Of a stretch of 64,000 bases of DNA, positions 37,390-43,853 are shown piece by piece (position 1 is the stretch's first letter; the number at the start of each line of letters is the position of its first letter). Origin of the DNA: Prevotella sp. Rep29 (lineage in GTDB: Bacteria; Bacteroidota; Bacteroidia; Bacteroidales; Bacteroidaceae). The position numbers were made by a program, and so were the translations under genes. Under the pieces are notes generated by a model. It saw only the letters and a list, made by a program, of their open reading frames with translations. It ran no database searches and was not told the DNA's origin. The stretch spans positions 868,001 to 932,000 of the forward strand of contig NZ_CP047159.1 of NCBI RefSeq assembly GCF_019551475.1, in the 5' to 3' direction.

Positions 37390-38952
37390 ATGCTCATAAA
37401 ACAAATGCAAGATAATAAAACTTTGACAGTCACATCACCATTGCTTCCCAATCTTGATGAGTTCCGTGAACTTCTCAAGGATATTTGGGATAGGAAGTGG
37501 ATTACCAACAATGGGCATTACCACCAGATGTTGGAGCAGGCACTGGCAGAATATTTAAAAGTGCCATACGTCAGCCTTTTTACCAATGGGACGTTGCCGT
37601 TGTTGACTGCTTTGCAGGCACTGCGAATTTCTGGCGAAGTTATCACGACACCTTATAGTTTCGTGGCAACAACCCATGCTCTGTGGTGGAATGGCATTAA
37701 ACCGGTTTTTGTGGATATAGAGTGGGAAACAGGTTGTATGGACCCCAATAAGATTGAGGCAGCCATCACGCCTAAGACCACAGCTATCATGCCAGTACAC
37801 GTTTATGGCAAGCCCTGCAATGTAAAAGCTATTCAAGAGATTGCCGATAAATACGGACTGAAAGTCATTTACGACGCAGCACATGCTTTTGGGGTGGAAG
37901 TACCAGCCCCCCTATCCCCCCTAAAGGGGGCGAATACTGGCAGGGTGTTGCATTCAGCAGACCCTGTTTACTATGGTAAATTGAAGGAATATGCACAGGA
38001 AAATCGCAATCATCCAACAGAGGCTGAAGCCCTTTTGTGGAACGTGCTTAGTGGCAAAGGACTTGATGGGGTTAAGTTCCGCCGTCAGCATATCATAGGC
38101 CAATACATCGCCGATTTTGTTTGTCTCGACAAGCGCCTTGTTATTGAACTAGACGGGCGTCATCACAGCCTGCCTCCAGTCAGCGAGGATGATCTTATTC
38201 GCACTGAGTATTTGAATGAAGAGGGTTATAGTGTTATTCGTTTCTCTAACGAGCAAGTACTTCATCACCTTGACAATACTTTAGGGCAAATCCGCACTGC
38301 CCTTCAAGACCCACCCTTTAGGGGGGATAGGGGGGCTGGTCGTGTCTCTGTTTTATCATTTGGCGACATGTCAACTTTGAGTTTCCATGCTACCAAAGTC
38401 TATAACACAATCGAAGGCGGTGCAATGGTCATGCATGACGAGAAAACGAAACAGCGCATTGATTACTTAAAGAATTTTGGGTTTGCTGGAGAAACGGAAG
38501 TAGTAGGTCCGGGTATCAATAGCAAGATGGACGAAATGCGCGCAGCATACGGTTTGTTAAACCTGAAACAAGTGGATGATGCGATAGAAGCACGTCATCA
38601 GGTGGCTATCAGATATCGTGAGGCATTGAAAGATGTAGATGGCATAGAATATTGGAATGACCTGCCAGGAGTAAAACACAACTACAGCTATTTCCCTATT
38701 TTTGTTCATCAGAAGACTTTCGGCATGACACGCGACGAGCTTTACTTCAAACTAAAAGAACAAGGCATTTTCGCCCGTCGTTATTTCTATCCACTCATCA
38801 GCGATTTCTCCACTTATCGTGGTTTGCCCAGTGCGACGAAAGAAAATCTGCCCGTAGCCAACGAAATGGCACGGGAAGTCATCTGCCTGCCGATGCACCA
38901 TGCGCTGAGTGAGGATGAGGTAGATAGAATAATAAAACTCATAGCGAGATAA
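37390..38952 (+). CDS. DegT/DnrJ/EryC1/StrS sugar aminotransferase carrying an in-frame DUF559 nuclease insertion
   Basis: One open frame of 520 codons. Residues 1-171 and 318-520 together form a normal DegT-type PLP aminotransferase of about 374 residues: TNGTLPLLTALQAL, PYSFVATTHALWW, DAAHAFG (Asp162 to the PLP ring) and LSFHATK (PLP Lys336). Such enzymes make amino sugars on nucleotide carriers. Residues 172-317 (146 codons) are foreign: a low-complexity edge, a complete DUF559 endonuclease-like domain at about 197-305 (NHPTEAEALLWNVL, FRRQHIIGQYIADFVC, VIELDGRHH with D242, E253 and D255, and GYSVIRFSNEQVL), and another low-complexity edge. The inserted DNA is bounded by a 27-base perfect inverted repeat. 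The insertion replaces a surface loop between Asp162 and Lys336, and no frame is lost. Whether the enzyme still works is unknown. Confidence 0.88.
   Translation: MLIKQMQDNKTLTVTSPLLPNLDEFRELLKDIWDRKWITNNGHYHQMLEQALAEYLKVPYVSLFTNGTLPLLTALQALRISGEVITTPYSFVATTHALWWNGIKPVFVDIEWETGCMDPNKIEAAITPKTTAIMPVHVYGKPCNVKAIQEIADKYGLKVIYDAAHAFGVEVPAPLSPLKGANTGRVLHSADPVYYGKLKEYAQENRNHPTEAEALLWNVLSGKGLDGVKFRRQHIIGQYIADFVCLDKRLVIELDGRHHSLPPVSEDDLIRTEYLNEEGYSVIRFSNEQVLHHLDNTLGQIRTALQDPPFRGDRGAGRVSVLSFGDMSTLSFHATKVYNTIEGGAMVMHDEKTKQRIDYLKNFGFAGETEVVGPGINSKMDEMRAAYGLLNLKQVDDAIEARHQVAIRYREALKDVDGIEYWNDLPGVKHNYSYFPIFVHQKTFGMTRDELYFKLKEQGIFARRYFYPLISDFSTYRGLPSATKENLPVANEMAREVICLPMHHALSEDEVDRIIKLIAR
37902..38340 (+). 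mobile_element. DUF559 nuclease cassette with 27-base terminal inverted repeats
   Basis: Bases 37902-37928 (ACCAGCCCCCCTATCCCCCC, then TAAAGGG) are the exact reverse complement of 38314-38340. Between them lies a complete DUF559 (PD-(D/E)xK, Vsr-like) domain in the same frame as the host gene, with no start or stop codon of its own in that frame. In host numbering the cassette replaces nothing essential and adds 146 codons (37903-38340). No target duplication can be fixed; two extra bases would be needed to keep frame, and none is obvious. The G/C-tract palindrome is unlike any other sequence in the window. Confidence 0.85.
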
Positions 38953-38959
38953 TTTTATA

Positions 38960-39345
38960 TTCCGAACATACCCTAAAAAGCCGAACACGACGAAAACTAC
39001 AATTTTCGGGCATTTCGATGTTTTCGAATACTTTCGGGATACAAAAAGAGTAGTTTCCGAAAAAGCACGAAAAACCGAAAAGTAGTTAAAACCTTTATTT
39101 CTGGGTATTTCGACATTTTAGGAAACTTTCTGGATAAAAGATAATTCAACATTCCGAAAACACCCTAAAAAGCCGAACACGACGAAAACTACAATTTTCG
39201 GGCATTTCGATGTTTTCGAATGCTTTCGGAATAAAGATAATTTATGGATTCCGAACATGCCTAAAAAACGAAAAGTAGCGAAAACTTATATTTCGTGTAT
39301 TTCGACATTTTAGGAAACTTTCGGAATTAAAACAACAAATTAAAA
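38960..39345. repeat. Tandem array of four approximately 96-base palindromic units (left of the GxxExxY gene)
   Basis: Units start with TTCCGAA at 38960, 39055, 39152 and 39249, a period of 95-97 bases. Units 1 and 3 are nearly identical; units 2 and 4 are a second variant. Each unit is an imperfect hairpin: an outer CCGAAxAxxCCCTAAAA arm pairs with TTTTxGxxxxxTTTCGG, and an inner CGAAAA pairs with TTTTCG. The array fills the whole gap from the aminotransferase stop to the start of the GxxExxY gene. No coding frame is visible. Confidence 0.85.
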
Positions 39346-39726
39346 ATGCTCGTATATAAGGACGAGTCGTACAAGATTAGCGGAGCACTATATGAAGTAC
39401 ACAAACGTCTTGGTGTAGGGTTGTTAGAAAAAGTATATCAAGAGGCACTTGCAATAGAACTAAAATACCGAAATATTCCCTTTGAAAGGGAAAAACGGTT
39501 TGACGTTTACTATAGGAATCAAAAACTCGATGCACAATACATTGCAGACTTTATATGCTATGACAAAATAATAGTGGAGATAAAGGCTGTGAGCGAACTT
39601 ACAGATGTTCACAAGGCTCAGGTTCGTAATTATCTTACGATAACGGGCTATGAACTCGGAATTTTGTGCAACTTTAACGAGCTGTACATGGAACCAGTTA
39701 GGGTACTTAATACAAATTTAAAATAA
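39346..39726 (+). CDS. GxxExxY-family PD-(D/E)xK protein
   Basis: This 126-residue protein has the name-giving motif G25-x2-E28-x2-Y31 (GVGLLEKVYQEAL). The nuclease-fold core is D68 ... E78-I-K80 (YIADFICYDKIIVEIK), a complete PD-(D/E)xK signature. The family is widespread in Bacteroidota and other phyla; its function is not known. It is a free-standing gene with ATG and stop, but it lies inside an array of palindromic units, four before and two after, with no other gene in the interval. This looks like an element carrying its own small nuclease-like protein. It is unlikely to take part in sugar synthesis. Confidence 0.85.
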   Translation: MLVYKDESYKISGALYEVHKRLGVGLLEKVYQEALAIELKYRNIPFEREKRFDVYYRNQKLDAQYIADFICYDKIIVEIKAVSELTDVHKAQVRNYLTITGYELGILCNFNELYMEPVRVLNTNLK

Positions 39727-39734
39727 AAAATGGT

Positions 39735-39925
39735 TTCCGAAAACACCCTAAAAAACGAAAAGTAGCGAAAACCTTTATTTTCGGGCATTTCGATGTTTTA
39801 GGGCATTTTCGGGATAAAAGATAAATTTAGGTATCTAAAATACCCTAAAAAGTTGGACATGACTAAAACTTTTATTTCTGGGTATTTCGATACTTTCGGA
39901 ACACCAATAATTTACGAATAAGGTC
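39735..39925. repeat. Two further palindromic units (right of the GxxExxY gene)
   Basis: Units begin near 39735 (TTCCGAAAACACCC) and 39832, again 97 bases apart, and belong to the same family as the four units at 38960-39345. The first shows the hairpin most clearly: TTCCGAAAACACCCTAAAA (39735-39753) pairs with TTTTAGGGCATTTTCGGGA (39796-39814) with two mismatches. The second is more diverged. Confidence 0.8.
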
Positions 39926-43534: not shown

Positions 43535-43853
43535 ATGTTTCAGCAGTCCAGACGTTTATCAGATTTCGGTATTTATCATGTAATGATACGAGGAATTAGC
43601 CATAAGAATATTTTTGCAGAATCGGAAGATTACTGTCAGTTTCCAACTACTTTGAATAAACAAGATAATCATTCGAATCTGCCGGCACGACTCTATACAG
43701 TACTATGCTTACTGTCTGATGTTAAGTTATTTCCAGATGCTTATTCGTGGCAAAGGATACAATTGTACAGTTGACGCAAGAGTTATTGCTATTAAAAAAA
43801 ATAAATATGGAGAAACGATTTATAAAAATCCGGCAAAGAAATTAGAATTTTGA
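43535..43853 (+). pseudogene. Remnant of a REP-associated tyrosine transposase (RAYT, IS200-like)
   Basis: The frame from ATG 43535 (79 codons to 43774) begins QSRRLSDFGIYHVMIRGISHKNIF and continues AESEDYCQF, the unmistakable N-terminus of Bacteroidota RAYT (Y1 transposase) proteins. The expected YCLM-x-NHVHLL block appears only in degraded form (LYTVLCLLSDVKLF), and the catalytic Tyr region is missing. In another frame, 43737-43853 encodes a 38-codon fragment (GYNCTVDARVIAIKKNKYG) that looks like the C-terminal end of a different, unrecognised protein. The gene is therefore decayed and probably recombined. Confidence 0.75.

Follow-up and report, generated by a model that had tools for sequence, protein, structure and literature searches.

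The gene at 37390..38952 (forward strand) of the window, a 64,000-nucleotide stretch of Prevotella sp. Rep29 (assembly GCF_019551475.1, contig NZ_CP047159.1, positions 868,001 to 932,000), encodes a DegT-type sugar aminotransferase whose single 520-codon reading frame contains an internal DUF559 (Vsr-like PD-(D/E)xK) nuclease domain bounded by inverted repeats. Judged by its sequence relatives, this insert is a recent mobile insertion, and with a probability of about 0.68 it represents a selfish homing-type mobile element of protein genes that is translated as a loop insertion without splicing. That figure applies to the mechanism as a whole: mobility of the element is held with greater confidence, and cutting of the empty allele by the nuclease with less. 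An initial annotation, made from the sequence alone, had recognised the in-frame nuclease and treated it as a single case; the insertion proved real, but its membership of a large class had been missed.

The inserted element and its host enzyme

The single frame and the complete nuclease domain within codons 172-317, both proposed by the initial annotation, were confirmed by the open reading frame (ORF) itself and by Pfam, in which the DegT_DnrJ_EryC1 match (E 8e-95) is divided in two by a DUF559 match covering residues 197-305 (37978..38304, forward strand; E 2e-33). The N-terminal part of the aminotransferase, residues 1-171, occupies 37390..37902 on the forward strand and includes Asp162 (37873-37875), and the C-terminal part (38341..38952, forward strand) includes Lys336 (38395-38397); this pair, previously suggested to be correctly placed once the insert is removed, is invariant across 51 aligned sequences. 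The inserted element (codons 172-317, 438 nt; 37903..38340, forward strand), recognised from empty-site relatives and scars, has 75 nt before the DUF559 domain (37903-37977) and 36 nt after it (38305-38340). Its two 27-nt arms are 100% complementary to each other, the left arm (37902..37928, forward strand) coding in frame for approximately PAPLSPLKG and the right arm (38314..38340, reverse strand) coding for approximately PFRGDRGAG in the host frame. These repeats are GC-rich, are free of stops in the frame used and code short Pro/Gly-rich linkers. Removal of 146 codons had been predicted to leave an enzyme of about 374 residues; the empty relatives listed are mostly 365-381 aa, and the net insertion is 145 codons, HAFGV and GDMST being 155 residues apart here and 10 apart in empty alleles. 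The insert probably lies in a surface turn of the aminotransferase, since 2po3, the DegT relative of known structure that is closest in sequence, aligns with only a short ‘DG’ stretch at the insertion site.

Splicing signatures were absent, as had been noted earlier. No intein or Hint family matched the ORF in Pfam at E <= 1e-3, and the insert, which runs from Pro172 to Gly317 with Arg318 as the next residue, has neither a nucleophile at its start nor a terminal Asn. The acidic residues D242, E253 and D255 (38113..38154, forward strand), described from the outset as retained, occupy columns that are invariant in 17/17 aligned DUF559 domains found by the Pfam model, and all three are retained in 122/122 database copies that have a residue at these positions (129 rows aligned). 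They are also kept in 80/80 named loci (81 rows), where only the first Asp is independent evidence because the search pattern required the Glu and the second Asp. Compared with the PDB, the nuclease family profile matched 3hrl (‘Endonuclease-Like Protein’; E 1e-28) and the 3r3p chain (‘Mobile intron protein’; E 2.5e-7), which we take to be I-Bth0305I. In addition, one DUF559 gene is assigned to the EDxHD family in a passage of PMC9403480.

Empty sites, scars and movement among DegT hosts

A protein search with the DegT N-terminal part (8000 scored, best 120 listed, for the most part natural proteins lacking the insert) and one with the nuclease part (limited to 0.55-1.75x query length; 295 proteins from 386 candidates, best 120 listed) together gave 156 aligned DegT relatives, 117 without and 39 with the insert, a ratio that is not a population frequency because one of the two pooled searches selects for DUF559. 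The best empty relatives match the window protein at up to 99% in the N-terminal part and 98% in the C-terminal part. The insert thus lies in a tolerant site that has empty counterparts, and the 117 insert-free relatives exclude an ancient fusion shared by all homologues, the contrary case that the initial annotation had raised. Among 18 other loci from the same genus, the site motif was present in 13, all of them empty at the DNA level, and five had no motif match.

Between HAFGV and GDMSTLSF, empty alleles have 10 residues and full alleles at least 150, while seven proteins carry scars of 14, 17, 19, 21 or 37 residues. Several scars keep repeat-coded ends (EVPAPAGRVSVLSF), and P0222 keeps both ends together with a nuclease stub; other alleles (e.g. 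P0009, P0010, P0026 and P0036) combine a full insert with an extra nuclease-free miniature copy. Nothing supports the cassette able to leave precisely that had been entertained earlier, since the intermediates are in-frame remnants of 14-37 residues compared with 10 in empty alleles.

The sequence immediately beside the insert also differs between allele types. Relative to the empty allele P0136, 5 of 202 C-terminal residues of the window protein differ, and four of these are residues 321-324, a clustering with a chance of 2.5e-6 under uniform placement in a test that was framed post hoc. An S/N-F pair preceding GDMST occurs in 27/39 full and 6/7 scarred alleles versus 0/110 empty alleles. Co-conversion of flanks is associated with homing in passages of PMC3943268 and PMC2988022, and residues 319-324 (38344..38361, forward strand), which differ from the nearest empty alleles where nearly all else matches, are a candidate co-conversion tract travelling with the insert.

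Horizontal movement of the element between host lineages is demonstrated by comparing the sequences of inserts and hosts. The closest host relatives of the window DegT are empty (top 97% over 359 columns). The distinct protein-database allele P0001 (17 member sequences, 3 contigs) carries a 100% identical insert in host halves that are 96% and 98% identical, and the closest inserts outside it (92-94%) belong to P0002, P0003 and P0006, whose DegT hosts share just 75-86% identity in the C-terminal half. With these four alleles (inserts 92-100% identical) the window forms a moderately supported clade (81) in the insert tree, a grouping that the host halves, tested on 77 of the 123 host-tree rows, reject (p-AU 4.3e-7). 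On the host tree (78 of 122 empties after thinning, 38 full and seven scarred alleles), presence and absence of the insert require at least 20 changes, of which the starred branches alone force eight, and 21 of the 23 rows in the starred set that contains the window are empty. The presence label is still clustered on this tree, with 0/500 shuffles as low. In P0195, a distant nuclease lineage (37% identity) occupies the same DegT site in a host that is 85-91% identical.

Recurrence in other host genes and related hairpins

The nuclease recurs inside many unrelated genes. A DNA survey of named genomes, from which the best 80 loci were kept, returned by title only Bacteroidota or their relatives with a query built from one family. 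In 35 loci the nuclease is embedded in a longer frame, with 80 or more codons flanking it on each side, in seven it lies at the C-terminal or contig end, and in 38 it forms its own ORF. For the internal copies, Pfam identified a host in 21/21 scanned, full-length protein matches identified 10 more as isoleucyl-tRNA synthetase (IleRS), and the remaining four (L056, L067, L096 and L114) were read by eye. Over all 42 long-frame proteins, including the seven terminal ones, Pfam was run on 28 and named the host in 25; the scan found no host family in L073, L088 and L108. Hosts include IleRS, LeuRS, ValRS, UvrA, PurL, CinA, RecG, MazG, urocanase and Ham1, as well as DegT at several sites, an ABC-F-type ATPase, methylmalonyl-CoA mutase and an epimerase/polysaccharide protein, with C-terminal fusions to GcpE. 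Among the matches listed, precomputed Pfam assignments add MetRS, MetH, UDP-glucose dehydrogenase-type, M23 peptidase, PP2C-type and CoA-transferase proteins; MiaB-type and SpoIID proteins, guanylate kinase and LeuB (both N-terminal) and phosphoglycerate mutase (C-terminal) are also hosts. With the class I tRNA synthetases entered as four, the host protein families number more than 20. Across the phylum, 109/198 genomes have a DUF559 match and, among the matches listed, 28 besides that of the window lie in frames of 417-1484 codons. Inverted repeats with a score of at least 14 flank 45/80 loci versus 1/258 random placements. One ValRS with a DUF559 insert (L057:252-3518) has ends that, read by eye, consist of repeated Pro/Gly-rich linker blocks, as if of nested mini-elements.

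Ten of the own-ORF loci were read, and eight of them form four pairs in which two genomes share each junction (gene names by eye): korA/korB (L041, L042), gltX and its neighbour (L046, L093), leuA/leuC (L070, L110) and argG/argC (L049, L104). At all eight the repeat continues into the start of the following frame, and in roughly five it additionally supplies the end of the preceding gene, a sequence arrangement that would fit a site preference combined with tolerance at protein ends. Own-ORF copies were also considered as out-of-frame gene interruptions, a reading that found no support in the ten loci read, which looked like two neighbouring genes instead. In-script removal of 25 repeat-bounded own-ORF copies yielded long frames (at least 60 aa on each side) in 20, these ten among them, but the junction was trimmed, so the count is no evidence of interruption. 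As for phages or plasmids as vehicles, 6 phage and 40 plasmid records contained only distant relatives (<60% identity); of the phage relatives, two are annotated as homing endonuclease, one as hedgehog/Hint and one as HNH endonuclease, and two are unannotated.

Insert-bearing IleRS was the only IleRS found in 12/12 genomes examined, mostly metagenome assemblies that may be incomplete, with one full-length match in 11 of them and, in the draft genome L058, one gene in pieces on contigs. Other matches of the IleRS search were to the insert alone, or were weak (~20-40% identity, short) and to other class I synthetases. The isolates among the 12 include Flavivirga rizhaonensis RZ03 and Salegentibacter holothuriorum DSM 23405, the latter with inserts in IleRS, LeuRS and MetH. 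Because no other IleRS was found, the enzyme is presumably functional with the insert, or else the insert is removed. In the Rep29 genome, two further DegT proteins among the matches listed share 30-31% identity with the query.

The initial annotation had suggested looking for DUF559 flanked by the same inverted repeat in other genes, which held for the nuclease but not for the repeat: allowing up to three mismatches, the 27-nt arm pattern had no site beyond its own two arms in the window or the 2.73-Mb genome (0 expected in shuffles). The idea that the window’s own repeat has many genomic copies was accordingly rejected, and it is a related hairpin family that is dispersed instead, at 28 places in the Prevotella sp. 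Rep29 genome versus 0 for the reversed control. Some of these hairpins are complete pairs bounded by ACCCCACCCC...GGGGTGGGGT, forming nuclease-free, REPIN-like miniature elements of 104, 105, 158 and 176 bp (L184, L185, L192 and L195). The genome’s other close DUF559 gene is a free-standing 129-aa ORF at C1:1686389, with hairpins around it (L190, G000:C1:1685000-1687800): a right-hand end stops at 1686315 on one side, and a left-hand end starts at 1686752 on the other. A suspected relic nuclease between hairpins at G000:C1:68484-68956 gave no significant tblastn match. In other genomes of the family (e.g. L014, L023 and L029), a C-rich tract outside and a hairpin inside flank the nuclease as in the window.

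Among 121 family genomes, a DUF559 match at E < 1e-20 was found in 12/16 with at least five hairpins versus 17/105 others (Fisher 4.3e-6, with kinship ignored). Y1 transposase matches occurred in 5/16 hairpin-rich genomes versus 38/105 others, so that RAYT as the hairpin mobiliser is unsupported, Y1 being no commoner where hairpins abound. PF01797 (Y1) had no match at E <= 1e-3 in the genomes of Prevotella sp. Rep29, G056 (44 hairpins) or G092 (33 hairpins). These sequence associations make it plausible that the architecture is REPIN-like but uses another nuclease. Within the window, a 79-aa ORF at 43535-43774 has a start that by eye resembles a truncated REP-associated Y1 transposase, although the genome search gave no Y1 match at E <= 1e-3.

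Proposed mechanism, alternatives and known systems

In the mechanism we favour, a Vsr-like (DUF559) nuclease frame between two GC-rich inverted repeats would be translated as part of the host enzyme, with the host protein most likely functional and the nuclease forming an extra internal domain. Alleles without the element would be cut by the nuclease and then repaired from a copy that has it, which would bring in the element together with a little flanking sequence. Old copies would then decay through in-frame deletion to give scars, nuclease-free miniature copies would arise from the element, and rare jumps to new sites would supply new host genes. We also lean, somewhat more cautiously, towards the broader view that in-frame homing elements that do not splice form a self-sustaining class in Bacteroidota, with DUF559 between linker-coding palindromes and with nuclease-free miniatures, residing in more than 20 often essential families and, in one isolate, in several of them together.

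A number of observations weigh against this interpretation. The host tree is a quick tree in which 50/120 inner branches have less than 80% support, and since a long frame shared with the host was the criterion for an internal copy, out-of-frame internal copies may have been missed. Repeats scoring at least 14 flank 25/38 own-ORF copies and only 20/42 long-frame copies, indicating that element ends decay or are not always needed, and single-strand folding of the window element’s two ends showed no significant excess over shuffles (z -1.2 and +0.65). The free-standing gene at C1:1686389 was rejected as a second complete copy of the same design, since its arms face the opposite way to those of the window element and the mini-elements. 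Across the 12 IleRS proteins, insert and host identities correlate (rho 0.53), which makes some of these insertions appear old and mostly vertically inherited. Structural adaptation to the insert, instead of co-conversion, could account for the clustered flank differences, and ordinary homologous recombination between polysaccharide loci could move insert and flanks together. The hairpin-rich genomes with no DUF559 match, G017 (137 copies), G065 (14), G083 (26) and G089 (34), are left unexplained.

Recombination of this kind is central to an alternative that we regard as unlikely, in which the element arrives by, for example, REPIN-like palindrome mobility aided by DUF559 and then spreads passively with ordinary transfer and recombination of the polysaccharide locus, the nuclease not driving the process. 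Sugar-biosynthesis loci recombine often, the 28 related hairpins, including the paired mini-elements, point to within-genome dispersal, and hairpin abundance goes with DUF559 in the family genomes. However, passive spread need not keep nuclease residues, and yet these are kept in every aligned DUF559 domain and every database copy scored. Moreover, the same DegT site has been taken by two distant lineages and the leuA/leuC and argG/argC junctions have each been hit in two genomes, which suggests site recognition. Removal of the insert after transcription or translation, whether by a novel form of protein splicing, by RNA excision across the 27-bp repeat or by ribosome bypass, seems improbable. 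The inverted repeats could pair in mRNA, and the presence of the insert in conserved, presumably essential enzymes with no second copy found, such as IleRS, speaks for such removal, but the insert has no Hint or intein domain, no nucleophile at Pro172 and no terminal Asn (Gly317 being the last residue), is continuous in frame with its host, and has end sequences that vary between copies.

Still harder to credit is a selected fusion whose nuclease is of use to the host enzyme or the cell, perhaps for defence or repair. The domain is conserved, and a DUF559 protein, Caulobacter VsrA, is described in part of PMC12907096 as acting on DNA in vivo, but the hosts (tRNA synthetases, urocanase, CinA, sugar enzymes) have no common function, and scars record loss of the insert with the host frame kept. 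The bifunctional protein suggested by the initial annotation is unsupported, because some near-identical hosts have the insert while others lack it, and because it has turned up in over 20 different families. Finally, a sequencing or assembly artefact, including the erroneous joining of two genes that had been named as a possible objection, is scarcely credible because the distinct allele P0001 carries the identical insert and the same junctions recur in it and in other database alleles.

The homing-type element favoured here resembles several known systems without coinciding with any of those compared. EDxHD/Vsr-like homing endonucleases (I-Bth0305I, 3r3p) are alike in nuclease profile, patchy distribution and repeated occupation of one site. 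I-Bth0305I is encoded by a self-splicing intron, whereas the window element shares one frame with its host and no intein was found in it. Similarly, inteins with homing endonucleases place an in-frame nuclease within conserved enzymes, have empty and full alleles and reoccupy the same site; in contrast to them, window-type elements have no splicing domain, have GC-rich inverted-repeat ends that code linkers, occur also at protein ends and leave short scars that persist. REPIN/RAYT systems are alike in their dispersed inverted hairpin pairs, which in the Rep29 genome belong to a related family while the window’s own arm is unique. Their mobiliser is a Y1 transposase, in contrast to the PD-(D/E)xK DUF559 nuclease here, for which hairpin movement is only a possibility. 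Palindromic DNA in frame in unrelated genes is itself already known, from Rickettsia palindromic elements (RPEs; described in passages of PMC10969869) and from REPs inside genes. RPEs are ~150 bp long, whereas each full element here has a complete nuclease between its repeats and nuclease-free miniatures are a minority among the DegT proteins examined. The mobE gene in nrdA of phage Aeh1 is likewise a homing endonuclease gene in a host gene without a splicing element, and the split nrdA is functional according to a passage of PMC2988022. The same non-splicing arrangement applies to mobA in T4 gene 60, and in both the host is split into separate polypeptides, whereas here the frame is continuous. 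A literature search that covered few subscription papers or preprints returned no account of a nuclease-bearing palindromic element as an internal domain of many essential enzymes. We place the element among homing elements, with a real chance that it merits a class of its own.

On the common view, a homing parasite inside an essential gene needs self-splicing to persist, the gene otherwise being split. Here a nuclease of 145 codons, with no splicing signature, is seemingly accepted as a loop even by so demanding an enzyme as isoleucyl-tRNA synthetase. If the proposed mechanism is true, these elements would join introns and inteins as a third means by which a homing nuclease can reside inside an unsplit essential gene. 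It would also explain many puzzling ‘DUF559 domain-containing’ tRNA ligases and other enzymes, suggest a role for a widespread and unexplained nuclease family, and may link palindromic repeats to a non-RAYT nuclease. In addition, the insertions would provide a natural catalogue of enzyme sites that accept a whole domain, and the origin of splicing elements from parasites would become a directly testable question.

Immediately beyond the aminotransferase gene, a second PD-(D/E)xK nuclease gene (PDDEXK_3 / GxxExxY; 39346-39726) lies inside an array of ~96-bp direct repeats (window 38947-39913). Copies of the repeat stand on both sides of this gene, and a 24-nt segment of it was found nowhere else in the genome; the array may be another nuclease-repeat element.

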